Source of the DNA: Pseudomonas baltica
GTDB taxonomy: Bacteria > Pseudomonadota > Gammaproteobacteria > Pseudomonadales > Pseudomonadaceae
Assembly (NCBI RefSeq): GCF_031880315.1
Contig: NZ_CP134771.1
Coordinates: 4,118,501-4,182,500, forward strand
Length of the DNA stretch: 64,000 nt
Direction: 5' to 3'
Part shown: positions 8,846-64,000 of the stretch, piece after piece
Layout: every line of letters starts with the position of its first letter
Numbering within the stretch: the stretch's first letter is position 1
Notes under the pieces: generated by a model
Told to the model about the DNA's origin: nothing
Seen by the model: only the letters and a program-made list of their open reading frames with translations
Databases searched by the model: none
Translations under genes and position numbers: made by a program

Positions 8846-10855
8846 TTATATATCCCGCCAGATACTTATCAGCGCCCCGGTCAAGCTGCGCTCCAGAGTC
8901 CGATTGCCATGCCCGCTGAGATGATCCGAATCGTCGTACAGCGGCCTGCCCTCTCTGTCGTACGCCGAACAGGCCGAATACGGGCAGAGCAGTGGTAGCG
9001 GGTCCCAGACATGCAGGCTGGGGTAGTCCCGTTGCAACTGCGCCAGTAGTTGCAACTGCGGCGCGCGCAGTTTCGCAATCTGGGCGCGCTCGACCGTCAG
9101 GCCGGGAGCGCATACCGGGTTCATGTGGTTGAACCCGTCCGAGCAGCGGTTGGGCGGTGCCTTGAACAGCGGCTTGGGCGCATCGATGAGGATTTGCGCC
9201 TGGGTCGCTGCAAGCCGCGTCAGCATGGCCCGCGCGGAGATATCCGCCTGTGTTGTATCCACCTCGGCCAATGCCTGCGCCCAGGCAGCCTGCTCCCCGG
9301 CCTGCCAATCACGCCCGGCCAGTTCGGGCATGCGCAGCGAGGCCAGCCACACGATATCCCCCGGGTTGGCCCGCGCTTCGATGTCCGCCAGCGCCGCTTC
9401 ACGCTCTGCGTCGCAGTCTTCGGGATCGGCACCGATCAGGCTCACCACAGCACAGCCGCCGTGCTCGTATTCCCGGACTTGCACCCCTAGGCGCAGCTCC
9501 ACCAGCTTGAGCAGGGTGCGATAGGCCGCAGTATGGGAGTCGCCCAGCACGAACAGCTGCCGGCCCTCGATCTCGGGGTCGTCCACGGGCTCGACGGTCT
9601 CGCGAGGATAGTGCTTGTAGGCGTGCCACAGGTAGCTGTCGCGGGTCTGGCTGAGCGATATCGCCGCGGTATTGTCGGTGATCCACAGAGCCGCCAGCCA
9701 CGTCATGCCCACTGCCACGAGGCTGGCGCTGATCGTGACCCAAGCGTTGCGCTGCAGCAGCGAACGCCCCGCGCGAATCGGGGTTTCGATCCAGTGATAG
9801 GAGCCTGCCGCCAGCGCCAGTACGATAAAGGGATAGAGCACCTGCGCCTCCAGCAGCTCCAGGCCGGTAGTCCAGCGCAGGAACACCGCCACCGGCCAGT
9901 GCCACAGGTACAGCGAATAGGACAGCCGACCGACGTACACCAGGGGCGGCGATTGCAGCAGTGTATGCAGCGGCGACCGGCAGCTCGCGGGTTGGAGGGT
10001 CACGGCGGCGATCAGCAGCAAGGTGCCACTGACGGTCACCAACGCCCACGGGAAGGGGAACAACTTGCGCTCGGCGTATACGAAGCCCAGCGTCACCAGC
10101 CCCATGCCGGCCATCAATAGCACCTGTGCCAGCCAGCCGCCGCGAACGGTGAGCGTTTTGTTGCCCAGCGCCTGAAACAGCAGCGCTCCGGCGGCCAGCT
10201 CCCAGAACCGACTGGGCAACAGGTAGAACGCCGACAGCGGATCGGTAGCGGTTTGCACGCCACTGACGATCAACGAGGCCAGCGCAAGGGCCGGCAGCAG
10301 CGCCCAGGCAAACTTCAGATGCGTCCTACAACGGCGGTACAAAAAATAAATCGCTGGAAACAGCAGGTAGAACTGTTCTTCCACCCCCAGCGACCAGGTA
10401 TGCAAGAAGGGGTTGAGCTCGGCGCGGGGCGAAAAGTACGGGTTGATGTTCCCCGCCAGGGTGAAATTGCTCAAGCCAATGATGGCCGCCAGTCCGGTCT
10501 GGTCGTTTTGATTGCTCAGCCACACCTGCGGCACGAACAACGCCGCCACTACGAAGCTGACCAGCAGCACCACCAGCAACGCCGGCAGGATGCGCAGCAG
10601 GCGACGGCGGTAGAAATCCAGCAGATACGCGCCAAACCCCAGGTGCGTGCGCTCGGCGAGGGCGCGGGTGATCACGTAGCCGGAGATGACGAAGAACATG
10701 TCGACCCCGGTAAACCCGCCCGGTAGCAGGTCGAGGAAGTCGAGATGGAACACGATCACACTCAGCATCGCGATGGCGCGCAGGCCGTCGATGCCGGGCA
10801 GGTAGTGAGCGGCGCGCGCCGGCGACGATGGGATCTGGAGCGAGGGGGAATACAT
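8846..10855 (-). CDS. Membrane acyltransferase-3 (OafA/YrhL type) with C-terminal SGNH domain
   Basis: 669 residues. The N-terminal half (about 1-400) has roughly ten membrane helices and acyltransferase-3 signatures: YLPGIDGLRAIAMLSVIVFH, GGFTGVDMFFVISGYVI, RRLLRILPAL and LHTWSLGVEEQFYL. The C-terminal part is a periplasmic SGNH-hydrolase-like domain with LFVLGDSHTAAYR and a late DSDHLSGHGN block giving Ser, Asp and His. Such proteins O-acetylate O-antigen, exopolysaccharide or peptidoglycan-linked sugars. The substrate here is unknown and no polysaccharide genes adjoin. It is opposite in strand to the dgc operon and separates etfB from gbcA, which suggests a later insertion. Confidence 0.92.
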   Translation of the reverse strand: MYSPSLQIPSSPARAAHYLPGIDGLRAIAMLSVIVFHLDFLDLLPGGFTGVDMFFVISGYVITRALAERTHLGFGAYLLDFYRRRLLRILPALLVVLLVSFVVAALFVPQVWLSNQNDQTGLAAIIGLSNFTLAGNINPYFSPRAELNPFLHTWSLGVEEQFYLLFPAIYFLYRRCRTHLKFAWALLPALALASLIVSGVQTATDPLSAFYLLPSRFWELAAGALLFQALGNKTLTVRGGWLAQVLLMAGMGLVTLGFVYAERKLFPFPWALVTVSGTLLLIAAVTLQPASCRSPLHTLLQSPPLVYVGRLSYSLYLWHWPVAVFLRWTTGLELLEAQVLYPFIVLALAAGSYHWIETPIRAGRSLLQRNAWVTISASLVAVGMTWLAALWITDNTAAISLSQTRDSYLWHAYKHYPRETVEPVDDPEIEGRQLFVLGDSHTAAYRTLLKLVELRLGVQVREYEHGGCAVVSLIGADPEDCDAEREAALADIEARANPGDIVWLASLRMPELAGRDWQAGEQAAWAQALAEVDTTQADISARAMLTRLAATQAQILIDAPKPLFKAPPNRCSDGFNHMNPVCAPGLTVERAQIAKLRAPQLQLLAQLQRDYPSLHVWDPLPLLCPYSACSAYDREGRPLYDDSDHLSGHGNRTLERSLTGALISIWRDI

Positions 10856-11365
10856 GGGCGGCCCGTCTCTTGTGCTTGGAGGGGCAACGACGTTAAAGCA
10901 AGAGGCGCGAAGGCGGCAGAGCTATTGGATTGCGGGGTATTTCAATTCTGATGGCGCAGAGCGGCCTATGGGAGGGCATGCACTCTGCGCCGCGGCGAGG
11001 CTTAGTCGCGGTTCTGCATCCCTGCGTCACGTCGTCTTGGTCGGACGGTCAAATCCGGCCGCTGAATTGGCAGCGGCTGGCGAACGATACCTAGGCAGCC
11101 GCAGCCCGACCGCCGATAACTCGTCCCCGCCGCGTATGCATTGCAACCTGTCAGAAGTATCAGGTTCGCCTTCTCTGGCGCTGGCCCACAATGGCGCTCA
11201 AAAGAATGAGGCTGGAACTTGAGCGGATGTCAGCTTCTAGCTGGCGCAAGTCTGTTCCAGCGCCACGCCCCCGTACACCTTTACCTGCGGATATGCTCGC
11301 CATTCGGGGAAGCTAGAAAATATCGCGCCTACTGCAACGAGCAGGCGCCCTATCTCGTTTTGAAC
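10856..11365. other. 510-bp stretch without a convincing gene
   Basis: It lies between the acyltransferase start and the gbcA stop. A 122-codon frame on the plus strand has no recognisable domain, low-complexity content and no clear ribosome site, so I do not call it. A weak hairpin near 11317-11348 may end gbcA. The stretch probably holds the acyltransferase promoter. Confidence 0.5.
11317..11348 (-). terminator. Possible terminator of gbcA
   Basis: Read on the minus strand after gbcA, the arms gcgcct and aggcgc (plus an inner gc/gc pair with a 3-nt bulge) are followed by a T-rich gatattttc. The bulged stem makes this tentative. Confidence 0.35.
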
Positions 11366-36526: not shown

Positions 36527-37270
36527 TCACTGACGCACGCTGTTTATTCTCTTGCGGAAATCCTCCATGGCGAGGTTCTGTGTAATGAATAGTGCACCCT
36601 TGTGCTTCCCTTCCGTGCCGCTGGTTATCAAGCGTGATTGCATTGTTTCGCCGTCGAAAAAGAACATCTCCCTCTGATAGTTCTCAACGTTTGGCACCTT
36701 GCCTGCAGAGGCTGGATTGTTGATAGTGTTGACGGGGGTGCTGTTTTTGAATCTGACATTTTTTGATGTGCTGGGTGCAGATATTGTTTTTGATACTCCT
36801 TTAGGGGCACTATTCAACGCTGAGGTGCTCTTGGATTTTTTTAATAGGCTGGATGACGCCGCGACGTCGCCGGACACGTTTTTCAAGCTTGAAGATTTTT
36901 TAAGGCTTGATTTTCGGGAGAATATATTTCTGAAAAACTTCAAGATTCTGCCGTGACCGCTCGGGTCTGCAGCGTTGATCGGATCCCCCTCGCAATAAAT
37001 ATAAGCATTGATCCCGCCAGCCTCAAACGGGCTCAAGCTGTCCGGGGTATGAAAACGCTGTAATTCAGGACTGTAATTTCGATAGCCGTTACCCAGGAGA
37101 TACCCACCCATAACGGGATCGAACACCTCGCCATTGAATCCAGACGCGGCAGCCATGAGGTTCTGACAATAGCCGAACGGGCCGTACGTCATGGAGTGTC
37201 GTCCAGTGTGTAGGACTGAGTTGCTCTGGTCGGTGGCGAAGAGCGAGAAGAGTGCAGCTTGGGTTCGCAT
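36527..37270 (-). CDS. Orphan RHS-repeat-associated core protein (distal copy)
   Basis: 247 residues. Residues about 10-105 are the RHS-associated core normally found near the end of giant RHS/Tc-toxin proteins: MTYGPFGY, GYLLGNGYRNYSPELQRFHT, PDSLSPFEAGGINAYIYCEG and DPINAADPSGH. The rest is a Ser/Lys-rich unrelated tail (SRKSSLKKSSSLKN...) ending in a short FFDGETMQSRLITSG domain. There are no RHS repeats, no signal peptide and no PAAR or VgrG nearby. Translation starts at 37270 after GAGG. Base use is AT-richer than the flanks. Stand-alone proteins of this kind are frequent in fluorescent pseudomonads; their function is not known to me. Confidence 0.8.
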   Translation of the reverse strand: MRTQAALFSLFATDQSNSVLHTGRHSMTYGPFGYCQNLMAAASGFNGEVFDPVMGGYLLGNGYRNYSPELQRFHTPDSLSPFEAGGINAYIYCEGDPINAADPSGHGRILKFFRNIFSRKSSLKKSSSLKNVSGDVAASSSLLKKSKSTSALNSAPKGVSKTISAPSTSKNVRFKNSTPVNTINNPASAGKVPNVENYQREMFFFDGETMQSRLITSGTEGKHKGALFITQNLAMEDFRKRINSVRQ

Positions 37271-52869: not shown

Positions 52870-53568
52870 ATGCACAAGATCCCTTCCCAAACGCAACTGG
52901 TCGAGCAGGTCTACGAGTCGATCCTCGATGCCATCTGCCAAGGCACCCTGCAGCCCAACGAGCGGGTCACTCAGGAAGGTCTGGCCGAGCAACTGGGCGT
53001 GTCGCGCCAGCCAATCCTGCAGGCTTTCCAACTGCTCAAGCGCCAGGGCTTTATCGAAGAATCCGGGCGCAAAGGCGTGATCATCACCCCGCTGGACCCG
53101 CAGAAGCTGGTGCAGCTATATCAGGTGCGGGCCGCCCTCGACGCGCTGGCGGCCCGGGGCGCGGCGCGGCGGGTGTACGATCTCGGCCCCGAAACTTGCG
53201 AGGCCGAGGGGCACGCCTTGATCGCCGCCGGGCGCCAAGCCGCCGCAGGGCAAGACCTCAACGCCCTGCTGCGCCTGGACATGGCCTTCCACCAGTGGCT
53301 CTACCAGCTCTCGGGCAATCCGATGATCGCCGAAACCACTGCGCTGCACTGGCAGCATATCCGCCGCACCATGAGCTCGGTGCTCAAGCACGAGGTGCGC
53401 TCCTTCGACAGCGTCTGGGACGAGCACCAGGCCATCTTGCAAGCCGTACTCATTGGCGACGAGGACCGTGCCGGGTTCCTCGCCCAGCAGCATGCCGAAA
53501 GCGCAGCCGAACACCTGGCGCGGATTCTGGAGGGCTCGGCACACGCGTCCAAACGCAAGCAGGCCTGA
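52870..53568 (+). CDS. GntR-family (FCD/FadR subfamily) transcriptional regulator
   Basis: 232 residues. The winged-helix domain (about 10-75) contains QLVEQVYESILDAICQG and GLAEQLGVSRQPILQAFQLL. The FCD ligand domain carries metal-type ligands in LRLDMAFHQWL, WDEHQAIL and AQQHAESAAEH. It leads the run with the PhyH oxygenase (31 bp downstream) and SDR, so it probably controls them in response to their substrate. A TGTATACA palindrome lies upstream. Confidence 0.92.
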   Translation: MHKIPSQTQLVEQVYESILDAICQGTLQPNERVTQEGLAEQLGVSRQPILQAFQLLKRQGFIEESGRKGVIITPLDPQKLVQLYQVRAALDALAARGAARRVYDLGPETCEAEGHALIAAGRQAAAGQDLNALLRLDMAFHQWLYQLSGNPMIAETTALHWQHIRRTMSSVLKHEVRSFDSVWDEHQAILQAVLIGDEDRAGFLAQQHAESAAEHLARILEGSAHASKRKQA

Positions 53569-53598
53569 TGGCCTGCGCAACACTCCCTGGAGACACTC

Positions 53599-54387
53599 AT
53601 GAAGCTGACACAAGAACAAATCGAAGCTTATGAAACCGACGGCTACATCCTCCTCGAAGGGCTGTTCAGCCCGGACGAGGCGGCGTTGATGAAGTCCCGT
53701 CTGCCACGCTTGTACAAACTCGATCGCGATGAGGTGATCAAGGAAAAAAGCGGCGCCGTGCGCACCGTGTTCGCCGCCCACACCTTTGACGAGGTGTTCG
53801 CCCGCGTGGCCCGCCATCCCCGGCTCATCGATCCGGCGCGGCAATTGCTTGGCAGCGACGTGTACATGCACCAGTTCAAGGTCAATGCCAAGGCCGCGTT
53901 CAACGGCGACGTGTGGCAATGGCACCAGGATTTCGGCACCTGGCACGAGGACGACGGCATGCCCGAGGCGCGGGCCATGAACGTCGCGGTGTTCCTCGAC
54001 GAGGTCAACGAATTCAACGGCCCGCTGATGTTCATTCCGCGCTCCCACAAACGCGGGCGCATCGAGGCCAGCCACGACCGCAGCACCACCAGTTATCCGC
54101 TGTGGACGCTGGATAACGCCAAGGTCGCCGAGCTGGTGGCCGAAGGCGGCATCGTCGCGCCCAAGGGTCGGGCGGGTACCGTGCTGATTTTCCAGAGCAC
54201 GCTGGTGCATGCCTCGTCGCCAAATCTGTCGCCTTGGGATCGCAACACCCTGTACGTGACCACCAACTCGGTGGACAACGCCATCACTCGCTTCAAGCGC
54301 CCGGACTTTATCGCCCATCGCGACTTCACGCCGATCGAAACGCTAGACGATCACTGCCTCGCCGGTTTCGACCAGGCGGTGGCCTGA
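53599..54387 (+). CDS. Phytanoyl-CoA dioxygenase (PhyH) family, ectoine-hydroxylase-like
   Basis: 262 residues. The Fe(II)/2-oxoglutarate site is His109-x-Asp111 (WQWHQDFGTWH), His204 (TLVHASSPN) and a likely 2OG-binding Arg215. MHQFKVNAKAAFNGDVWQWH and the late RPDFIAHRDFTPIE resemble EctD-type ectoine hydroxylases, but no ectoine synthesis genes are present, so the substrate is open. The neighbouring SDR could oxidise the hydroxylated product. The stop shares one base with the SDR start (TGATG). Confidence 0.88.
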   Translation: MKLTQEQIEAYETDGYILLEGLFSPDEAALMKSRLPRLYKLDRDEVIKEKSGAVRTVFAAHTFDEVFARVARHPRLIDPARQLLGSDVYMHQFKVNAKAAFNGDVWQWHQDFGTWHEDDGMPEARAMNVAVFLDEVNEFNGPLMFIPRSHKRGRIEASHDRSTTSYPLWTLDNAKVAELVAEGGIVAPKGRAGTVLIFQSTLVHASSPNLSPWDRNTLYVTTNSVDNAITRFKRPDFIAHRDFTPIETLDDHCLAGFDQAVA

Positions 54388-55184
54388 TGAGCCCGCGCAT
54401 GCACGGCAAGACCGTGATCGTCACCGGCGCCGGGGCCATTGCCGACGGCATGAGCAATGGTCGCGCTGCCGCGTTGCTGTATGCCCGTGAAGGCGCGCGG
54501 GTGCTGGCGGTGGACCGTAACCTGGCCAGTGCCGAGCAGACCTGCGCGATGATCCGCGAGGAAGGCGGGCAGTGCGAAGCCCATGCCACCGATGTCGCGC
54601 AAAGCGCCGAGGTGCAGCGCATGGTAGCTGCGGCCATGGACTATTTCGGCCGCATCGATGTGCTGCACAACAACGTCGGCATCGCCGAAACCGGTGGCCC
54701 GGTAGAGGCCAGCGAGGAGAGCTGGAATCGCCTGGTCGCGGTCAATCAGACCAGTTTGTTCCTGACCTGCAAGTTCACCTTGCCGGTCATGGAGCAGCAG
54801 CGCAGCGGCGCGATCGTCACTATCGCCTCGGTGGCGGCGCAGCGTTGGCTGGGCTTTCCTTATGTGGCCTATACCGCGACCAAGGCGGCGGTGATTGCCC
54901 TGACCCAGAATGTCGCCGCGCAATATGCGGCGGCGGGAATTCGCGCCAATTGCGTGTCGCCCGGGTTGATGGACACGCCGATGGTGCGCGCGTCGCTGAC
55001 CGCAAGTTACGGCGGCAATATCGACAGCATGCTCGATACCCGCCATTCGCAATGCCCGATGGGCTTTATGGGCGATGCCTGGGATGTGGCCAATGCGGCG
55101 CTGTTTTTAGCGTCGGATCAAGCGCGGTATATCACTGGGATCAATCTGGTGGTGGATGGGGGGCTGATGCTCAAGTGTGCCTGA
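54387..55184 (+). CDS. Short-chain dehydrogenase/reductase coupled to the PhyH oxygenase
   Basis: 265 residues. The Rossmann loop is VTGAGAIADGMSNGRAAALL, longer and different from the usual TGxxxGIG. The catalytic Ser lies in TIASVAAQRW and Tyr-x3-Lys in YVAYTATKAA; the C-terminus ends DGGLMLKCA. Reaction and substrate are unknown. Its last 40 bp form the left end of a 233-bp tandem duplication, so a remnant of this C-terminus is repeated at 55378-55417. Confidence 0.9.
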   Translation: MSPRMHGKTVIVTGAGAIADGMSNGRAAALLYAREGARVLAVDRNLASAEQTCAMIREEGGQCEAHATDVAQSAEVQRMVAAAMDYFGRIDVLHNNVGIAETGGPVEASEESWNRLVAVNQTSLFLTCKFTLPVMEQQRSGAIVTIASVAAQRWLGFPYVAYTATKAAVIALTQNVAAQYAAAGIRANCVSPGLMDTPMVRASLTASYGGNIDSMLDTRHSQCPMGFMGDAWDVANAALFLASDQARYITGINLVVDGGLMLKCA

Positions 55185-55206
55185 TGGATCTTCATTGATA
55201 GTGAGG

Positions 55207-55277
55207 GCGCTTTCGCGGGCAAGCCTTGCTCCCACAGGTGTACGACTCTGTGGGAGCAAGGCTTGCCCGCGAAGGCG
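55207..55277. repeat. REP palindrome, duplicated copy 1
   Basis: Arms gctttcgcgggcaagccttg and caaggcttgcccgcgaaggc in the first copy of the tandem duplication. Confidence 0.85.
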
Positions 55278-55322
55278 TCAGTCCAACCAACATCAAATTC
55301 ACAGCAGTAAGGAACCCATTGG

Positions 55323-55400
55323 ATGCTGGCCATCTTCAACGTCGCTTTCCCCGTATTCGGCCTGATTTTCGTCGGCTTCTGGTGGTGGATGGGGGGCTGA
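55323..55400 (+). pseudogene. Truncated copy of the AEC transporter start
   Basis: ATG 55323 begins MLAIFNVAFPVFGLIFVGF, identical to the AEC start, then crosses the duplication junction into WWWMGG and stops at 55398-55400. It has the same upstream sequence as the intact gene (taaggaac...), so it could be translated to a 25-residue hydrophobic peptide. It is a by-product of the duplication. Confidence 0.8.
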
Positions 55401-55439
55401 TGCTCAAGTGTGCCTGATGGATCTTCATTGATAGTGAGG

Positions 55440-55510
55440 GCGCTTTCGCGGGCAAGCCTTGCTCCCACAGGTGTACGACTCTGTGGGAGCAAGGCTTGCC
55501 CGCGAAGACG
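55440..55510. repeat. REP palindrome, duplicated copy 2
   Basis: The same palindrome 233 bp downstream, differing from copy 1 at 55508 only. Confidence 0.85.
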
Positions 55511-55555
55511 TCAGTTCAAACAACATCAAATTCTCAGCAGTAAGGAACCCCTTGG

Positions 55556-56494
55556 ATGCTGGCCATCTTCAACGTCGCCTTCCCCGTATTCGGCCTGATT
55601 TTCGTCGGCTTCTTCTGTCGCAAGCGCAATATCCTGGGGCCCAACGCCTCCAGTGAACTGAACCGTTTCGTGATCTTTCTGGGCCTGCCGTCGCTGCTGT
55701 TCGAGTCGATGTCGCGCCTGGCGTCGGTGCAGTCACTCAATCTGGGCTATATCGCTGCATTCGGCCTCGGCATGGCCGGGGTATTTGGGCTCACCTTGTG
55801 GATAAGGCTGCGCAGCCGGGCGCACTTCATCGATGCGACCATCGACGCCTTGGGTGCGGCCTATCCCAACTCCGGGTTCCTGGGCATTCCGTTATGCCTG
55901 CTGACGTTCGGCGATCAGAGCATGCCGCCGGCGGTGATCGGCACCTTGATGACCGCCTGCCTGCTGTTCGCCGTAGCGATCATCATGATCGAGAGCTATC
56001 GCCAGGCCGAAAAACACCTGGGCCGCACGCTGCTCAAGGTGGGAGGCTCATTGCTGCGCAACCCGGTGATGCTGGCGCCGCTCTTCGGTGCGCTGGTGGC
56101 CGCCAGCGGCTGGCAGATGCCCAGTGGCTTGCGGCAGTTGTTCCAGTTTCTGGGGGCGGCGGCGGGGCCCTGCGCGCTGGTGTCGATCGGTCTGTTCCTG
56201 GCCGCGTCCAAGCCGCAGCCGGGGGACGCCAGAACAGTATTTTTGCTGGTGCTGTGCAAATTGATTCTGCAACCGTTGCTGACCGCCTGGCTGGCCTTCA
56301 AGGTGTTCGACATGCCGCCGATGTGGGCGTGGGCGGCGCTGCTGCTCAGTGCCCTGCCGATCGGCAATGGGCCGTTCATGCTGGCCGAACTGTTCGAGCG
56401 CGAGGCCAACACCATGTCGCGCTCGATATTGATTTCGACGCTGCTGTCGCTGGTGACGGTGTCGATTATTCTGGCGATGATTCCTGCGGTGTAG
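55556..56494 (+). CDS. AEC-family (auxin efflux carrier type) transporter
   Basis: 312 residues and about ten membrane helices. Family landmarks are VFGLIFVGFFCRKRNIL, NRFVIFLGLPSLLFESM and AAYPNSGFLGIPLCL (the NxGFxGIP motif), with the C-terminal half starting near LRNPVMLAPLFGALV. It probably exports or imports small carboxylates. AAGGAA lies 9 nt before ATG 55556. Its context with GntR/PhyH/SDR suggests transport of their substrate or product. Because of the duplication its leader is preceded by an extra copy of its own start. Confidence 0.9.
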   Translation: MLAIFNVAFPVFGLIFVGFFCRKRNILGPNASSELNRFVIFLGLPSLLFESMSRLASVQSLNLGYIAAFGLGMAGVFGLTLWIRLRSRAHFIDATIDALGAAYPNSGFLGIPLCLLTFGDQSMPPAVIGTLMTACLLFAVAIIMIESYRQAEKHLGRTLLKVGGSLLRNPVMLAPLFGALVAASGWQMPSGLRQLFQFLGAAAGPCALVSIGLFLAASKPQPGDARTVFLLVLCKLILQPLLTAWLAFKVFDMPPMWAWAALLLSALPIGNGPFMLAELFEREANTMSRSILISTLLSLVTVSIILAMIPAV

Positions 56495-56668: not shown

Positions 56669-57796
56669 TCAACACAGCAATCCCTCGCCTTCCGCCAACT
56701 GCGACCTCAACGGCGCAATCTCCAGCCGGCGCAAGATCCGGTACAGCGACGGTCGGCAGATCCCCAACTCCCGCGCGGCGGCGGTCATGTTCCAGCGGCA
56801 CAGCTTGAGCACCTGCAGCACGTTGTGGCGTTCCTCGGCGCTTTTGTCCACCCGCATGTCCACCGGCACCCGCCGACGTAACGGCGTGACGTTGGCGAAC
56901 CCTGTAGCGAGGGGCCGCGTGTTCGGCGCCGAATAAGGCGCAGTGCCTGTGCGGATCTCGTGAGCATGCTGCAGCGCTGCCGCCCCAGCGAACTCCTCCG
57001 GCAGATCATGCCGCTGAATCCGCGACCCTTCCATCACCGCGCAGGCATACCGAATCACCGCACGCATCTGGCGCAGATTACCGGGCCACGGATGGTTCAT
57101 CAGCACGCCCCACACGTCATCGGCGATCGCCTGGCGCGGATCGCGCTCAGGCATCTCGGCCGCCACCATGCTGCAAATCAGGTCGGCGCGGTCAGTGCGC
57201 TCGCGCAGAGCCGGCAGATGCACGACGCCGGTGGCGATGCGATAGAACAGATCTTCCCGAAATTCCCCGGCCTTGATCCGCGCGGAAAGGTCCTGGTGCG
57301 TAGCGCAGATCAGCGCGAAGTCCACTGGAATCGACTGTTCGGCGCCCAGCGGGGTGATCTCGCGTTCAGCGATCACCCGCAGCAGACGGGTCTGCTGCTC
57401 GTACGGCATGTCGCCGATCTCGTCGAGGAACAGCGTGCCACCGTCGGCCTGCAGGACCTTGCCCTTCTTGCCGCCCGGCAAGGCGCCGGAAAACGCGCCG
57501 CGGGCATAGCCGAACAGCTCGCTCTCGATCAGGGTTTCAGGGATGGAGGCACAATTGAGCGACACCAGATTGGCGCGGCGGGTCTGTTGATTGTGCAGGT
57601 GCAGGGCGCGGGCGAGGACTTCCTTGCCGGTGCCGGTTTCGCCCTGGATCAATACAGCGATACCACGCTCCATCAGGCGCAGCGCGCGGCGAAAGGCCTG
57701 GCGCACTTGCGGATCGCGGTCGTTGGCAATATCACAATCGGCTAAAACGATGGACGGGGGTACGGCACGCGTAGGTAGAGCGTGGTTTGCGGACAT
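56669..57796 (-). CDS. Sigma-54-dependent activator lacking a sensory domain
   Basis: 375 residues. The AAA+ domain starts almost at once: Walker A GETGTGKE (52-59), GAFSGA (100-105) in place of the usual GAFTGA sigma-54-contact loop, Walker B TLFLDEIGD (121-129), and FREDLFYRIATGVVHLPALR further on. A Fis-type HTH ends it (WNMTAAARELGICRPSLYRIL). There is no receiver, GAF or PAS domain, so control must come from its own expression or a partner. It is the only sigma-54 activator gene in the window and the natural candidate for the -24/-12 promoters at 62980 and 63243. Divergent from the LysR gene. Confidence 0.92.
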   Translation of the reverse strand: MSANHALPTRAVPPSIVLADCDIANDRDPQVRQAFRRALRLMERGIAVLIQGETGTGKEVLARALHLHNQQTRRANLVSLNCASIPETLIESELFGYARGAFSGALPGGKKGKVLQADGGTLFLDEIGDMPYEQQTRLLRVIAEREITPLGAEQSIPVDFALICATHQDLSARIKAGEFREDLFYRIATGVVHLPALRERTDRADLICSMVAAEMPERDPRQAIADDVWGVLMNHPWPGNLRQMRAVIRYACAVMEGSRIQRHDLPEEFAGAAALQHAHEIRTGTAPYSAPNTRPLATGFANVTPLRRRVPVDMRVDKSAEERHNVLQVLKLCRWNMTAAARELGICRPSLYRILRRLEIAPLRSQLAEGEGLLC

Positions 57797-57954
57797 CAGC
57801 GGTCACCTTGTTGTTTTTATATAGCTCGTGACTATCGCGAGTCGACGCGCTTGTGGCGCAACGGGCTCGGTGGCTTACGCTTCCTACAATAGGTAGGCAC
57901 ACCGATCTTTTCCAATACATAATCGGGCAGCCATTGATACCTTCCGGAGCAATG

Positions 57955-58866
57955 ATGATCGAGCTACGCCACCTCGAATACTTCCGCACCCTGGCCGAGA
58001 CCCTGCATTTCGGCCGTGCGGCGCAGCGTCTGCATATCTCCCAGCCGCCGTTGTCACGGCAGATCGCGCTGCTGGAGGAAGAGCTGGGGGTCAAGTTGTT
58101 CGATCGCTCCAGCCGCCGCGTCGAGCTGACTGACGCCGGCCAGCGCTTCTATCTGGACACCGGCACGGTATTCGCGGCGTTCGAGCAGGCCAAGCGCAAC
58201 GCCCTGGCGGCGGCACGGGGCGAGGCCGGTGAATTGTCGGTGGGCTTCATGATGTCCACGGCCTATAGCGTCACCCCGGCCATCACTCGGCGCTATGCGG
58301 CGTTATATCCGCAGGTCACCCTCAAGCTGACTGAAACGCTGCCCATGGACCTGGCGACGGACATCAGCAGCGGCCAGAAGGACGTCGCCATCATGTATCG
58401 CCCCCAGGATTGCACCGGGCTGGAGACTGCCAGTGTGTACAGCGAGGAGATGATGCTGGTACTGCCGCCGGGGCACGCCCTGCTTGATTACGAGGTGGTG
58501 GAGCCGATGCAATTGGCCGGCGAGCCGTTCATCATCGTGCCCCGGCACATCGCGCCGGCGCTGCACGACATGATCGTCAATTACTGCCTGCAACATGGCG
58601 TCACGCCGACGGTCGCCATGGAGATCAACATGCAGCAGACCATCGTCAATCTGGTGGGCGAGGGCATGGGCATCGCCATCGTGCCGCGCTCGATGCGCAA
58701 CATGCGCCTGGCGACCACGACGTTCCGGCCGCTGAAGAACGCGCCGATGATCGAGGTGGTTGCGGTGTGGAAGCACGACAACCATAACCCGTGCATCAGC
58801 TCGTTTATCGACAGCGCGCGGCTGGCGGGGCAGGAGGCGGAGGTCAATCGCGCGGCAGAAGGCTGA
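57955..58866 (+). CDS. LysR-family transcriptional regulator
   Basis: 303 residues from ATG 57955, with CCGGAG 5-6 nt upstream (ATG 57952 is too close). The HTH is RHLEYFRTLAETLHFGRAAQ...ISQPPLSRQIALLEEELG, followed by the substrate-binding domain (about 90-295), with GMGIAIVPRSMRNM near the end. It is divergent from the sigma-54 activator over a 158-bp gap, so it may regulate that gene. Effector unknown. Confidence 0.92.
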   Translation: MIELRHLEYFRTLAETLHFGRAAQRLHISQPPLSRQIALLEEELGVKLFDRSSRRVELTDAGQRFYLDTGTVFAAFEQAKRNALAAARGEAGELSVGFMMSTAYSVTPAITRRYAALYPQVTLKLTETLPMDLATDISSGQKDVAIMYRPQDCTGLETASVYSEEMMLVLPPGHALLDYEVVEPMQLAGEPFIIVPRHIAPALHDMIVNYCLQHGVTPTVAMEINMQQTIVNLVGEGMGIAIVPRSMRNMRLATTTFRPLKNAPMIEVVAVWKHDNHNPCISSFIDSARLAGQEAEVNRAAEG

Positions 58867-59031: not shown

Positions 59032-59820
59032 TCAAATCTCCAGAATGCCGGACGCCATGAACCCCCCATCCACCGGGATCACATGCCCGCTGATATAGGA
59101 CGCATCATCCGACGCCAAAAACGCCACCGCCCCGGCCATCTCCGCCGGCGTGCCGTAGCGCTTCAAGGGCACCGCTCGGGCGTAGGAGGCGCGCGTCTCG
59201 GGCGAGTGCAAGGCCTGGGTCAGCGGCGTATCCACCGGGCCTGGAGCGATGCCGTTGACGGTGATGCCGTATTCCGCGAGTTCGATCGCCATCTGTTTGG
59301 TCAGGCCGATCACCGCTGCCTTCGACGTGCCATACGCGGTGCGCCCGGCGCTGGCGCGCATGCCGCTGATGGAGGCGACGTTGACGATCCGACCCCAGCC
59401 GTTGCTGCGCATCAGGCGCGCCGCGTGTTGCCCGCACAGCAGGGTGCCGGTCAGGTTGATGTCGAGCACGCGCTGCCAGTTGTCCAGCGGGTAGTCGATA
59501 AAGGGCAGGGTCTTGGCGATGCCGGCGTTGTTGACCAGCACGTCGCAGCGGCCGTGGCTGCGCTCCAGGTCGGCGAAGACGCTGGCGATGGACTCGGGGT
59601 TGCCGACGTCGATGGCCATGGCCAGCGCTTCGATGCCGTTGGCGCGCAGGCCGGCGACCATTTCCTCGGCGGCGGCCAGATTGATATCGGCCACCACCAC
59701 GGTGTGACCGTCCTCGCCGAGACGCTGGGCGATGGCAGCACCGATGCCCATGGCGGCGCCGGTCACCAGTGCGACACGGCCTACGGCGGATTGACGATAC
59801 TGCTGGGCTGCTTGAGTCAT
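59032..59820 (-). CDS. Short-chain dehydrogenase/reductase upstream of the TRAP genes
   Basis: 262 residues, classical SDR: TGAAMGIGAA cofactor loop, NNAGIAKT, Ser in VASISGMRAS, YGTSKAA catalytic Tyr/Lys, and DGGFMASG at the end. Asp45 in VVADIN suggests NAD(H) preference. Same strand as the TRAP operon but 168 bp downstream of it across a REP element, so a shared transcript is uncertain. Substrate unknown; it may act on the TRAP-imported acid or alcohol. Confidence 0.92.
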   Translation of the reverse strand: MTQAAQQYRQSAVGRVALVTGAAMGIGAAIAQRLGEDGHTVVVADINLAAAEEMVAGLRANGIEALAMAIDVGNPESIASVFADLERSHGRCDVLVNNAGIAKTLPFIDYPLDNWQRVLDINLTGTLLCGQHAARLMRSNGWGRIVNVASISGMRASAGRTAYGTSKAAVIGLTKQMAIELAEYGITVNGIAPGPVDTPLTQALHSPETRASYARAVPLKRYGTPAEMAGAVAFLASDDASYISGHVIPVDGGFMASGILEI

Positions 59821-59988: not shown

Positions 59989-61869
59989 CTACAAAAAGCC
60001 GATGGAAATCCACGGGAAGCATGCCACGATGACCAGCGCGACGATCAACGCCGCCAGGTAACTCCAGACCTTGCGGATGACGTTGTCCGAGCTCACCTTG
60101 CTGATCGCGCAGGCCGCATAGAAACCCACCCCCAGGGGCGGCGCGAACAGGCCGATGCCCATGGCCAGGATTACCACCATGGCGTAGTGCACCGGGTGGA
60201 TGCCGAGCATCTCCGCGAGCGGGAACATCAAGGGCCCGAACAACACGATGGCGGGGATGCCCTCCAGCACGCTGCCGAGGATCAGGAAGGTGACGATGGT
60301 CACCAGCATGAAGGTGAACTTGCCGCCTGGCAGGTCCGCGATAATGTCCACCAGGTTGGCCGAAAAGCCCGACTGGGTCAGCGCCCAGGCCATGGCCGAG
60401 GCCATGCCGATGATCAAGAGGATCGACCCCGACAACGCCGCCGCTTCAAGCATCATCGGGTACACGCGCTTGAATTCGATGTGGCGCATGAACAGGTGCA
60501 TCACCAGGCCGACCATCACCACATAGGCGACGCCGATGGTCGATACTTCGGTGGCCGTGGCCGCGCCTTCGAGCACGGCGATACGGATCAGCAACGGCAA
60601 GGCCAGGGCCGGCAAGGCGATGCAGAAGGTCTTGAGCACCGTGCCCATGGGCGCGCGTTGGACGTCCGGTTTGGCCTCGTTGCGCGAGCGCCACCAGCAC
60701 ACCAGGGCGATGACCACGGTGCCGACCACGGCCGGCATCAGCCCGCCGATGAACAGGGCGGTGATCGACACGCTGCACACCGCACCAATGGTGATCAGCA
60801 CCAGGCTCGGGGGGATGGTCTCGGTCATTGCGCCAGTGGCCGCCAACAGCGCCGCCAATTCTTCAGGCTTGGAGCCGCGTTTTTTCATTTCCGGAAACAG
60901 CGCCGGGGCGACGGCTGCCATGTCGGCGACCTTGGAACCGGAAATCCCCGACACCAGAAACATCGCCCCCAGCAGTACGTACTGCAAGCCGCCGCGCACG
61001 TGGCCGAGCAACGAGGCCATGAAGTCGATCAGGGTCTTGGCCATGCCCGACAGCTGCAACACCACCCCCAGCATCACGAACAGCGGCACGGCCAGCAGCA
61101 CCATGTGCGACATGCCTTCGTCCATGCGGCTGACCACGATCGACATCGGCGCGTGGGTGACCAGCGCCAGGTACGCCATGGTCGCGGTGCCGAAGGCGAA
61201 GGCGATCGGGATGCCGCCGAACACACAGGCGCCCAGCAGCACCATGAAGAACACTACCAGGTTGAAGTTGCCGATCTGCCCGAGCAACGGCTGGGCCAAC
61301 CACAAACCGCCCGCGACGGCGGCAATCAGCAGCAGGCCAGCGCCGAACTGGCGCACTGTGGTACAGCGCGCCATACGCGCCACTGCCGCCAGTAGCATCA
61401 GTACCGCACCCACTGGCAACGCCGCCGCCCGCAGGCCGTCGGGAATACCCAGGGCCGGTGTGGTGATGACCATCTGTTCAGTGGCGTGATGCATGGCCGG
61501 GGTGATGATCATCGCCACGAAAATGCACACGATCATCGCCGACAGCGTCTCGCTGAAGGCCCGCCAGTTGGCCGGCAGCTTGTTGACGATGGCCGACATG
61601 CGCATGTGCTCACCGCGGTCCAGCGCCAGCACCGCGCCGAACATCGCCAGCCAGATGAACAGCGATGAGGCGAGTTCATCCGACCACATCAACGGGCTGT
61701 GCAGCAGGTAGCGCGAGATCACCCCCGCCAGCAGCACACCGGTTTCGACCACCATCAGCACCACGGCCAACAGGCCGACGATGCGCATTGCCCAGCGGTT
61801 AAGGCAGATCAGCACCCGGGCCGGCAGGCGCGATGAAGCAACGGAGGCCGAAGCGACGTGGGTGTTCAT
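59989..61869 (-). CDS. Fused TRAP transporter DctQM membrane protein
   Basis: 626 residues. The N-terminal ~180 residues hold four helices of a DctQ small permease (WSDELASSLFIWLAMFGAVLAL). The rest is a DctM large permease with about twelve helices (LFVMLGVVLQLSGMAKTLID, GISGSKVADMAAVAPALFPE, TGAMTETIPPSLVLITIGAV). It imports a small organic acid with the Na+ or H+ gradient together with DctP. The start overlaps the dctP stop by 4 bp (ATGA). The fused form is common but less usual than separate DctQ and DctM. Confidence 0.93.
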   Translation of the reverse strand: MNTHVASASVASSRLPARVLICLNRWAMRIVGLLAVVLMVVETGVLLAGVISRYLLHSPLMWSDELASSLFIWLAMFGAVLALDRGEHMRMSAIVNKLPANWRAFSETLSAMIVCIFVAMIITPAMHHATEQMVITTPALGIPDGLRAAALPVGAVLMLLAAVARMARCTTVRQFGAGLLLIAAVAGGLWLAQPLLGQIGNFNLVVFFMVLLGACVFGGIPIAFAFGTATMAYLALVTHAPMSIVVSRMDEGMSHMVLLAVPLFVMLGVVLQLSGMAKTLIDFMASLLGHVRGGLQYVLLGAMFLVSGISGSKVADMAAVAPALFPEMKKRGSKPEELAALLAATGAMTETIPPSLVLITIGAVCSVSITALFIGGLMPAVVGTVVIALVCWWRSRNEAKPDVQRAPMGTVLKTFCIALPALALPLLIRIAVLEGAATATEVSTIGVAYVVMVGLVMHLFMRHIEFKRVYPMMLEAAALSGSILLIIGMASAMAWALTQSGFSANLVDIIADLPGGKFTFMLVTIVTFLILGSVLEGIPAIVLFGPLMFPLAEMLGIHPVHYAMVVILAMGIGLFAPPLGVGFYAACAISKVSSDNVIRKVWSYLAALIVALVIVACFPWISIGFL

Positions 61870-62906
61870 GCCAGCTTCCCGGCGTACTTCTCGAGAATCG
61901 CCCAGGCGTCGTCACCGAAGGTCTTTTTCCAGTCGGCGTAGTAGCTGGTCGAGGCCAGCTTGGCGCGGAACGGCTCAGGTGGCGCTTCGACGATTTCCAG
62001 GCCCTTGCCCTTGAGGGTGTCGCGGATGCTGCCTTGCAACTTGGCCAGGTCTTCGCGCTGGGCGAGGATGCCGGCATTGATGTGCTTGGTGACGATCACC
62101 TGTTGCTCGGCCGAAAGCTTGGAGAAGTTGGTCTTGTTGCCGAGCATCCAGAAGCCGTCCCACACGTGGTTGGTCAGCGAGCAGTATTTTTGCACTTCGT
62201 AGAGCTTGGCCGAGTCCACCAGGGTCAAGGGGTTTTCCTGGCCTTCGACGACCCGCGTCTGCAGGGCCGAATACACCTCGGCGAAGTTGATGGCGGTCGG
62301 CGCGGCGTCGAACGCCTTGAAGATCGAGGTAAGGATCGGACTCGGCGGCACGCGCAGCTTCATGTCCTTCAGCGCGTCGGGGGTGGCCACCGGCCGGGTA
62401 CTGGTGGTGGTCACGCGGTAGCCGTTGTCCCACATTTTTTCGAAGGCGAACAGCTTGCCATCGTCGGCCTTGGCGATCTGTGCGCGCACGTGGGCGCCCA
62501 GATCACCGTCCATGGCTTGCCAAACGGTGTCGTAGTCCTTGAAGGCAAAGCCAATGGCGCTGATCTGCACGGCGGGCACCAAGGTGCCGAGGATGACGGG
62601 CGACAGCGAGAACAGATCGACTGCGCCGGAACGTACTTGCGCGAGGGTGTCGGTATCGCTGCCCAGTTGGCTGCTGGGGAACACCTGGAGAATCACCTGG
62701 CCGTCGGTTTCTTCCTTGATGGCCTTGGCCATCTTGCGCGCCTGCACGTTCATGGGGTGGGTCAGGGGCAGGTTGTTGGCGTACTTGAGGGTGATGACAT
62801 CGGCGCCAAGGCTGCTCGAGCTGTACAGCCCGAGGCTTCCTGCCGCTGCGGCCGCCGAGGCGAGAGAGGCGGTCTTGAGGAAGCTGCGGCGCGAGAAATC
62901 TGCCAT
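61866..62906 (-). CDS. TRAP transporter substrate-binding protein (DctP family)
   Basis: 346 residues from ATG 62906, with GGAGAG upstream. A twin-arginine signal (SRRSFLKTASLASAAAAAG) is unusual but known among DctP proteins. The mature protein shows the DctP pattern: LKYANNLPLTHPMNVQARKM, FPSSQLGSDTDTLAQVRSGA and the ligand-anchoring Arg region around MKLRVPPSPILTSIFKAFDA. It captures the substrate in the periplasm for DctQM. The gene is first in the operon and is preceded on its strand by a -24/-12 sigma-54 promoter at 62980-62996. Confidence 0.93.
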   Translation of the reverse strand: MADFSRRSFLKTASLASAAAAAGSLGLYSSSSLGADVITLKYANNLPLTHPMNVQARKMAKAIKEETDGQVILQVFPSSQLGSDTDTLAQVRSGAVDLFSLSPVILGTLVPAVQISAIGFAFKDYDTVWQAMDGDLGAHVRAQIAKADDGKLFAFEKMWDNGYRVTTTSTRPVATPDALKDMKLRVPPSPILTSIFKAFDAAPTAINFAEVYSALQTRVVEGQENPLTLVDSAKLYEVQKYCSLTNHVWDGFWMLGNKTNFSKLSAEQQVIVTKHINAGILAQREDLAKLQGSIRDTLKGKGLEIVEAPPEPFRAKLASTSYYADWKKTFGDDAWAILEKYAGKLA

Positions 62907-62979
62907 GTGGGACTCTCCATTGTTTTTGTTGTTGTAGTTGTCGACTGATCGCGGCTGCACGATCCAGGTAATGGGTTAT

Positions 62980-62996
62980 AGCAAATCAGGTGCCAG
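62980..62996 (-). promoter_or_regulatory. Sigma-54 promoter of the TRAP operon
   Basis: Minus strand ctggcacctgatttgct has GG and GC exactly 12 nt apart and matches TGGCAC-N5-TTGCT in full. It lies about 75 bp before the dctP start. Confidence 0.8.
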
Positions 62997-63124
62997 CGTC
63001 GGCATGGCCAGTGGCCTGTTATCGACGATCTGCTCTTTCGGTGACTAACTGGCTGTTAATCAATGGGTTTTCAAATTTGTTGCTGCTTGTGTCTGTGAAC
63101 CAGGCGACGAGCACAAGGCGACAG

Positions 63125-63197
63125 GTGTCTCCCGGAGTGTCACCGCCCAGGCGTCCAGGGAGACACTTTCAGGTGTCACCGCCATCGCCGGTGACAC
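63125..63197. promoter_or_regulatory. Cluster of GTGTC/GACAC repeats, probable activator-binding sites
   Basis: GTGTCTCCC at 63125, GTGTCACCG at 63137 and again at 63173, with inverted partners GGGAGACAC at 63158 and CGGTGACAC at 63189. The pair 63173/63189 makes a 9-bp inverted repeat with 7-nt spacer. The cluster sits between the two divergent sigma-54 promoters, 50-190 bp from them, as expected for shared upstream activator sites. Confidence 0.7.
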
Positions 63198-63242
63198 TGC
63201 TGTAACCCCCGTGCCATCGGCCCCGAGGCCCGCCCGAGCGGC

Positions 63243-63259
63243 TTGGCACCGGTCTTGCT
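63243..63259 (+). promoter_or_regulatory. Sigma-54 promoter of the thiolase gene
   Basis: ttggcaccggtcttgct matches the -24/-12 consensus with GG and GC 12 nt apart, 37 bp before the thiolase start. Confidence 0.85.
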
Positions 63260-63296
63260 ATCGCCCTTGCAACAACTCTAACAAGGGGCCCACCTC

Positions 63297-64000
63297 ATGC
63301 ATTCGCCTGTTATCACCGGCTGGTATCACTCGCCGTTCGGCAAGTTCGATCAACTCGACCCCGAGCAGATGATGGCCGATGCCGCCATCGCCGCGCTGCA
63401 ACATGCCGGCCTCGATGCCGAGCAGATCGACTCGGTGCACGTCGGTCATTTCAACGCCGGATTCCTCTATCAGGATTTCCCCTCGACGCTGCTTGCCAAT
63501 CATATTCCGGCGTTGCGCTTCACCCCGGCGGTGCGGGTCGAGAACGCCTGCTCCACCGGCTCGGCGGCGATCCACTCGGCGCTGCAATCGGTGCTCAGCG
63601 GCCAGGCCAGACACGCTTTGGTGGTGGGCTTCGAGAAGATGAACACGCTGCCCACCGCCGAGGTCGGCAAGATTTTGCTCAAGTGCTGCTACACCCGCGA
63701 GGAGGCCGATATCGAAGGCGGTTTCGCCGGGGTGTTCGGAGTGATCGCGCAGGATTATTTCGACCGCTATGGCGACCAGTCCGATGCCTTGGCGATGATT
63801 GCGGCGAAGAACCACGCCAATGGCGCCTTGAACCCGTTCGCCCATATGCGCCGTGATTTCGGCTATGACTTCTGCCGCACGCCCTCGGAGAAAAACCCCT
63901 TCGTGGCCGGGCCGCTCAAGCGCACCGATTGTTCGTTGATCACCGATGGCGCCGCAGCGCTGGTGATCAGCCGCGAAGACCTGGCGGGTGATCGGCCCCA
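63297..64000 (+). CDS. SCP-x type thiolase / acetyl-CoA acetyltransferase, 5' part (continues past window)
   Basis: About 234 residues are visible from ATG 63297; the frame is open to the last base. The nucleophile Cys is in VRVENACSTGSAAIHSALQS, the position of the thiolase/SCP-x catalytic Cys, and HVGHFNAGF and LVVGFEKMNTLP support the family. Such proteins act in beta-oxidation-like cleavage or C-acylation and often need a DUF35/OB-fold partner, which may lie beyond the window. It is driven by the sigma-54 promoter at 63243. The weak ribosome site is aagggg. Confidence 0.88.
   Translation, partial: MHSPVITGWYHSPFGKFDQLDPEQMMADAAIAALQHAGLDAEQIDSVHVGHFNAGFLYQDFPSTLLANHIPALRFTPAVRVENACSTGSAAIHSALQSVLSGQARHALVVGFEKMNTLPTAEVGKILLKCCYTREEADIEGGFAGVFGVIAQDYFDRYGDQSDALAMIAAKNHANGALNPFAHMRRDFGYDFCRTPSEKNPFVAGPLKRTDCSLITDGAAALVISREDLAGDRP

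Follow-up and report, generated by a model that had tools for sequence, protein, structure and literature searches.

The window analysed here comprises 64,000 nucleotides of Pseudomonas baltica, positions 4118501-4182500 of a 6.63-Mb single-contig genome. Within it, a gap at 62907-63296 separates dctP, on the minus strand, from a thiolase gene on the plus strand. The genes for a sigma-54 activator and a LysR-type regulator stand to the left of the TRAP operon. Downstream of the thiolase gene, outside the window, lie an acyl-CoA synthetase gene and then a small gene whose product scores 15.8 bits against PF03479 (21.6 and 22.9 bits in two orthologues, cut-off 25); this gene is PCC-like only and falls short of membership of that family. 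The features of the locus are as follows.

56669-57796, minus strand: gene for the sigma-54 activator (enhancer-binding protein), with a GAFSGA motif and without a recognisable sensor domain
57820-57835: block TATAGCTCGTGACTAT upstream of the activator gene, conserved across 17 aligned Pseudomonas loci (a single match in the window)
57908-57923: conserved block TTTTCCAATACATAAT upstream of lysR (same alignment of 17 Pseudomonas loci; one match in the window)
57955-58866, plus strand: gene for the LysR-type regulator, divergent from the activator gene; the nearest NCBIfam model is AlsR, with a score below the cut-off of that model
59032-59820, minus strand: short-chain dehydrogenase (SDR) gene, the last of the TRAP operon dctP-dctQM-SDR
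59989-61869, minus strand: dctQM, fused TRAP permease DctQM, in the TRAP operon
61866-62906, minus strand: dctP, TRAP solute-binding protein DctP (Pfam DctP; best solved relative 4oan)
62980-62995, minus strand: -24/-12 element of the TRAP operon, TGGCACCTGATTTGCT, an exact TGGCACN5TTGCW
63058-63070, plus strand: weak IHF-like site, AATCAATGGGTTT, between the dyad and the TRAP promoter (8 of 9 consensus positions; equalled by 24 of 200 shuffles)
63089-63197: six clustered GTGTC/GACAC words, of which one falls within the dyad and five are half-site words
63117-63132: full dyad of the putative shared enhancer, GGCGACAGGTGTCTCC, the top-scoring site of the window under a matrix built from loci L061-L123 alone
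63244-63259, plus strand: -24/-12 element of the thiolase-acyl-CoA synthetase(-PCC-like) operon, TGGCACCGGTCTTGCT, an exact TGGCACN5TTGCW
63297-64000, plus strand: thiolase gene, continuing beyond the end of the window (L002:797-1966)

Adjoining the cluster, at 52870-56494, are genes for a GntR regulator, a PhyH-type dioxygenase, an SDR and an auxin-efflux-type carrier. Because relatives of some of them sit beside the thiolase cluster in other genomes (e.g. L046, L049, L110 and L122), they may belong to the same pathway.

Promoter elements and dyad of the dctP-thiolase gap

The first-pass annotation had reported a full -24/-12 match on each strand of the gap, and both are indeed present as exact matches. 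They point outward and have the spacing GG-N10-GC in a TGGCAC-N5-TTGCW context. The exact pattern TGGCACN5TTGCW occurs twice in the window, both times in the gap, against an expectation of 0.08, and none of 100 shuffles contained two. Over the 6.63 Mb of the genome there are 11 exact matches, two of them here, against 7 for the backwards control; an exact match alone is therefore weak evidence, and the case for the promoters is carried by their arrangement and their conservation. The genome contains one match to the sigma-54 DNA-binding domain family PF04552 (237 bits). A further near-consensus -24/-12 match, TGGCACCTTGCCTGCA, was seen on the plus strand at 36692 of the window. As for the IHF-like site, the best scores in eight other gaps were reached by 11-85 of 100 shuffles, except in L057 (0 of 100).

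The dyad is 16 bp long and of the TGCGACA-NN-TGTCGCA type. It scores 18.9 in the matrix; the next site in the window scores 11.9 and all others in the gap less than 5, so that the window holds only one full dyad with a good score. Its centre lies 119 bp from the -24 element on the thiolase side and 130 bp on the dctP side, which places one enhancer cluster between two outward promoters, as in a hyc/hyp-type pair. GTGTC/GACAC words begin at 63089, 63125, 63137, 63162, 63173 and 63193, a number reached by 1 of 2000 dinucleotide shuffles (shuffle mean 1.2); only the word at 63125 falls within the dyad. Among the matches listed, the gap contains two exact 9-bp inverted-repeat pairs and one exact 10-bp pair. 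Thus, where five such elements with a 9-bp inverted repeat had been described, the inverted repeats are real and the words number six. The idea of a shared site between the promoters is supported, and the conserved unit to which the words point is better described as the 16-bp dyad.

In an exploratory analysis of related sequences, the distances from dyad to dctP peaked at a period of 11 bp (R 0.43; 51 distinct distances, 25 periods tried), and on the thiolase side R was highest for periods of 10 bp (0.30) and 16 bp (0.31). In the gaps of L088, L104 and other Pandoraea, dyads or near-dyads occur in threes at intervals of 30-34 bp, roughly three turns of the helix.

Conservation of the promoters and dyad and their linkage to the activator

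Conservation of the -24/-12 elements in relatives had been named beforehand as a test on which the prediction could fail; it did not fail here. From a thiolase search we took the best 80 of 351 loci and set aside L064, which is cut at the promoter, leaving 79. The Pseudomonas set consists of 17 loci (L044-L060), among them a metagenome bin (L045) that groups with L044; the closest named relative by thiolase is Pseudomonas sp. MWU16-30317 (L044, thiolase identity 100%). A thiolase at least 85% identical is found in 15 of 398 genomes of the genus, the present genome counted. Each of the 17 Pseudomonas loci has a site with a score of 0.95 or more upstream of both genes; two less similar thiolase relatives of the genus, L029 (63%) and L030 (57%), showed no such promoter.

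Defining the activator as present in cis when the locus DNA encodes a protein at least 45% identical to it, we obtained 52 loci with the activator and 27 without. Where the activator is present, a thiolase site of at least 0.95 was found in 45 of 52 loci and a dctP site of at least 0.90 in 49 of 52, and in random 500-base stretches of the same loci these thresholds were reached in 13 and 55 of 3944 cases, respectively. Four of the thiolase exceptions (L084, L091, L109 and L111) have a 0.88 site, TGGCCTGGCTYTTGCA, 51-63 bases before the gene; the others, L080, L099 and L115, are also the loci whose dctP site scores below 0.90. Locus L080 has an exact dyad, yet degenerate promoters (0.74 and 0.81), and in L062 both promoters are present, but the best dyad of the gap reaches no more than 10 of 14 positions. 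In L099 and L115 the activator is present, no sigma-54 site was seen at the thiolase gene or dctP, and the PCC-like gene alone keeps one. In these two loci dctP follows immediately after the activator gene in the same orientation, and its operon may be transcribed from the promoter of the activator gene.

The 27 loci without the activator in the DNA covered fall into 17 that lack the thiolase site and 10 that have it. The latter all belong to Herbaspirillum or Pandoraea, and their contig or flank ends early. Seven of these ten genomes hold a 51-58% identical activator, which in G403, G405 and G406 lies just beyond the flank, as judged by contig number and position; in G400, G402 and G404 the promoters are present and no activator match was found at E 1e-70. 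Two of the 17 siteless loci are in genomes with the activator beside another copy of the cluster, which provides contrasts within a genome: Herbaspirillum 3R11 has the promoter-bearing L067 and the siteless L076, and Chitinasiproducens has L080 with a dyad and L118 without. The other 15 siteless genomes gave no activator match (seven genomes) or only 44-54% matches in frames of 686-755 aa (eight genomes). Upstream of the thiolase gene, the best dyad of the 17 siteless loci reaches 8-10 of 14 positions. Fisher's test on the raw thiolase counts gives p 1.5e-5, for loci that are related and counts that are accordingly not independent. In a thiolase tree of 37 chosen rows, activator-less copies are scattered inside Herbaspirillum (L076), Burkholderiaceae (L118, L085 and L110) and Alcaligenaceae (L074 and L105), which suggests that the promoters probably came or went along with the activator on more than one occasion. 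An automated count of one change in that group takes labelled rows only and leaves out unlabelled ones, so that repeated change is invisible to it.

The dyad follows a similar distribution. Upstream of the thiolase gene it is perfect (14 of 14) in 30 of the 35 non-Pseudomonas loci with the activator; the remaining five score 13 (L116), 12 (L119), 10 (L062) and 9 (L099 and L115), and a score of 13 was reached in 3 of 1226 random 800-base windows. With the matrix trained on L061-L123, every one of the 17 Pseudomonas thiolase promoters proved to have a dyad, which no more than 1 of 200 shuffles equalled in any case; 6 of the 7 dctP promoters in separated operons had one as well. We searched 24 genomes, each from a locus with the activator: 20 contain the exact dyad, and 13 have it as a single copy, which stands at the dctP-thiolase gap in 12 and upstream of the PCC-like gene in the genome of L099. 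Across 399 sampled Burkholderiales genomes, an exact dyad was found in 9, compared with 4 for the reversed control. Two of the nine have it at this gap and two near activators of 38-41% identity; five have no activator among the query matches, and in two of these the dyad sits in a stretch ended by a contig end. From the comparison with the reversed control and from the sites without an activator, it follows that a bare dyad is not diagnostic outside the cluster. One Burkholderiales genome has two exact dyads 34 bp apart (L158:9885 and 9919) with no activator among the query matches nearby.

Separated operons, paralogous cassettes and the two regulators

In seven Pseudomonas loci (L046, L047, L049, L050, L053, L054 and L060) the two operons lie apart. 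These form one clade inside the genus (support 97/93), where the deeper order is unresolved. All seven keep a -24/-12 element at the thiolase gene and at dctP, as well as a RGCGACAGGTGTCTCC-like site at the thiolase promoter, and six of the seven have an additional GGAGACACCTGT-type site of their own at dctP; the region of the seventh (L046) ends early. Because the dctP-side site has the orientation of the shared window dyad read towards dctP, we take the enhancer to have been duplicated at the time the operons separated.

A comparable arrangement is found where the PCC-like gene is detached. All eight activator-bearing loci examined have dyads or half-sites at this gene, together with a TGGCAY -24/-12 element in six and a weaker element, CGGCATCGTTYTTGCA, in L099 and L115; in L110, which is without the activator, neither a -24/-12 element nor a dyad was seen there. 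Pandoraea also has a second activator-LysR pair, 48-52% identical to that of the window, with its own dyad and a TGGCATCCRAATTGCT element in 4 of 4 regions (L144, L145, L146 and L166, chosen by dyad or activator match). The next gene in L144 matches an ACPS-type phosphopantetheinyl transferase (29.9 bits, cut-off 25), and a -24/-12 element before this possible transferase gene could represent a different use of the same switch. In the same region (L144:670-4293 and 10003-10941), the LysR-activator paralogue stands near a large protein that appears from its sequence to combine AMP-ligase, carrier and reductase parts.

The activator itself has the domain make-up of a bacterial enhancer-binding protein, with an AAA+ sigma-54 interaction domain (PF00158, 200 bits), a lid and a Fis-type HTH (PF02954, 31 bits); both scores exceed the cut-offs. 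All 52 orthologues read GAFSGA in place of the GAFTGA loop. No sensor Pfam domain was found in the activator, nor in the precomputed Pfam annotation of the 120 homologues listed (0.55-1.75 of the query length), and the frame before the aligned part in the 52 orthologues extends 2-166 codons from the preceding stop. According to the part of a D. vulgaris study available to us, GAFSGA is counted among the loop variants that would keep function, two Desulfovibrio activators read GAFSGA, and 4 of 37 Desulfovibrio activators are without N-terminal domains, with partner proteins or cascades suggested for them (PMC4641369). The main text of PMC5744179, as far as it was accessible, yielded no passage on GAFSGA.

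Gene orders place a LysR gene next to the activator gene and pointing away from it in 51 of 52 loci. The intergenic stretch between the two had no sigma-54 element in the loci inspected; the conserved block at 57820-57835 is possibly a LysR box (ATAG-N7-CTAT). The one exception is Glaciimonas L119: a search at E 1e-20 gave no LysR match there, and the gene divergent from the activator gene encodes an IclR regulator (HTH_IclR and IclR_C, both over cut-off). With its IclR regulator, L119 still has both promoters (scores 1.00 and 0.90) and a dyad matching at 12 of 14 positions, a single case that suggests an exchangeable sensor and a dyad belonging to the activator.

Proposed mechanism and comparison with known systems

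Taken together, these data make it very likely that the sigma-54 promoters are served by the activator encoded at 56669-57796 via the shared enhancer. The gap would then be a bidirectional sigma-54 control region, in which the activator is predicted to bind the dyad mid-gap and to remodel sigma-54 RNA polymerase at the two outward -24/-12 promoters. Because the promoters stand back to back around one shared control site, the genes for import and breakdown are probably switched on together, so that the TRAP uptake of one acid, its oxidation by the SDR, its activation by the acyl-CoA synthetase and its cleavage by the thiolase would be induced jointly. Coordinated sigma-54 control of uptake and thiolase operons, a shared enhancer and this activator as their regulator had all been predicted by the first-pass annotation, and conservation (17 of 17 Pseudomonas loci and most activator-bearing Burkholderiales loci), co-inheritance with the activator, and parted operons with their own elements and enhancer copies argue for each of them. 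As the activator is without a recognisable sensor domain, its activity would most likely be set by its amount. The divergent LysR regulator would sense the substrate or an intermediate and set the activator level, a role as sensor towards which we lean with some reserve.

Several other readings were weighed. That the elements are chance matches and that sigma-70 promoters drive both operons gains something from the backwards control, by which exact matches alone are weak evidence, but the window has only two such matches, both in one gap, outward-facing and conserved across Pseudomonas and Burkholderiales, and we regard this reading as extremely improbable. It is also very unlikely that the sigma-54 promoters are real and another enhancer-binding protein of the genome acts on them. 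The genome does have 22 strong matches to PF00158, this activator counted, and a similar dyad may serve activators related to it (L160 and L161); however, among the genes compared it is this activator that is linked in cis to promoters and dyad in both Pseudomonas and Burkholderiales, and its Pandoraea paralogues carry dyad and promoter along. The near-constant co-occurrence of LysR and activator would also fit a dyad that is the LysR operator, with LysR acting directly at the gap. We give this reading very little weight, since the dyad lacks T-N11-A spacing on inspection and is retained in Glaciimonas L119, where IclR replaces LysR.

A different question is how the activator, if it serves these promoters, is itself controlled. 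The sensorless activators PspF and HrpRS are controlled in trans, according to the available part of PMC7057263, and a protein partner or cofactor could similarly act on the present activator after its synthesis, as PspA does on PspF, in place of an amount set by LysR. The constant neighbour of the activator is a LysR (51 of 52) or IclR (L119) protein, however, and both are DNA-binding regulator families; we therefore consider post-synthetic control unlikely, and retain control through the amount of activator as our working model. In its most general form, to which we give an even chance, this model describes a portable relay cassette: a ligand-sensing regulator of the one-component kind, whose family is exchangeable (LysR, or IclR in Glaciimonas), would command a GAFSGA activator that is itself sensorless and has a 16-bp operator of its own, one enhancer would serve two outward sigma-54 promoters, and parted operons would each take a copy of the enhancer.

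The substrate may be a beta-hydroxy or beta-keto acid, a guess from enzyme classes, because uptake, SDR oxidation, CoA ligation and thiolysis fit such a compound. The best solved relative of DctP, 4oan, we take to be a Rhodopseudomonas protein modelled with 2-acetolactate. This compound is among the TRAP ligands given in the accessible part of PMC5812351, where 4oan is not named. The cluster points to a hydroxy- or keto-acid pathway.

If the model is correct, environmental Pseudomonas and Burkholderiales possess a dedicated activator-operator pair whose sites are rare enough in several genomes for the regulon to be named in silico. The locus would also offer a natural experiment on enhancers, in which one set of elements can be followed through a divergent, a separated and a lost state. 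A relay would keep sensing apart from sigma-54 activation, so that inducers could be rewired while the promoters stay as they are; with sensor and activator encoded by separate genes, the swapping of inducers becomes open to test.

Many homologues of this activator are named acetoin/glycerol regulators by their sources, and the dyad also occurs near relatives of 38-41% identity. AcoR carries a sensor at its N-terminus, whereas no N-terminal sensor region is recognisable in the present activator. HbcR-type 3-hydroxybutyrate catabolism places the dehydrogenation and use of a hydroxy acid under sigma-54 control; it differs in its genes and in the architecture of its activator. FhlA, a large activator, includes a sensing region of its own, and hyc and hyp share one enhancer. 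The hycA/hypA region of E. coli and Salmonella resembles the gap in having two outward sigma-54 promoters, about 115 bp apart and assigned to one activator, FhlA (PMC3844500, in the portion available). It differs in its genes and has no TRAP transporter.

PspF and HrpR/HrpS resemble the present activator in having no cis-regulatory domain, and they are inhibited by PspA and HrpV, whereas here the neighbour is a LysR or IclR protein and the motif is GAFSGA (accessible part of PMC7057263). The P. aeruginosa dctPQM genes, under DctD and RpoN, are a further sigma-54-controlled TRAP transporter; DctD belongs to a two-component system, and a divergent thiolase operon is not mentioned in the part of the article at hand (PMC7962211). 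For EtpR of Aromatoleum, the accessible portion of the source gave no comparable promoter data.

The first-pass annotation had claimed that no described system has this combination. At hycA/hypA, one activator is already known to serve divergent sigma-54 promoters, so the novelty is smaller than claimed; the regulon itself appears to be new, as no description of the cluster was recognised among the matches listed in the openly licensed literature (CC0, CC BY and CC BY-SA). Thus, divergent sigma-54 promoters (hycA/hypA), sigma-54 control of a TRAP transporter (dctPQM) and sensorless activators (PspF and HrpRS) are each already known singly. What is new, as far as the openly licensed literature shows, is a regulon that joins the dyad to a GAFSGA activator that lacks a recognisable sensor and has an exchangeable one as its neighbour, and to an enhancer that was apparently copied when the operons parted.
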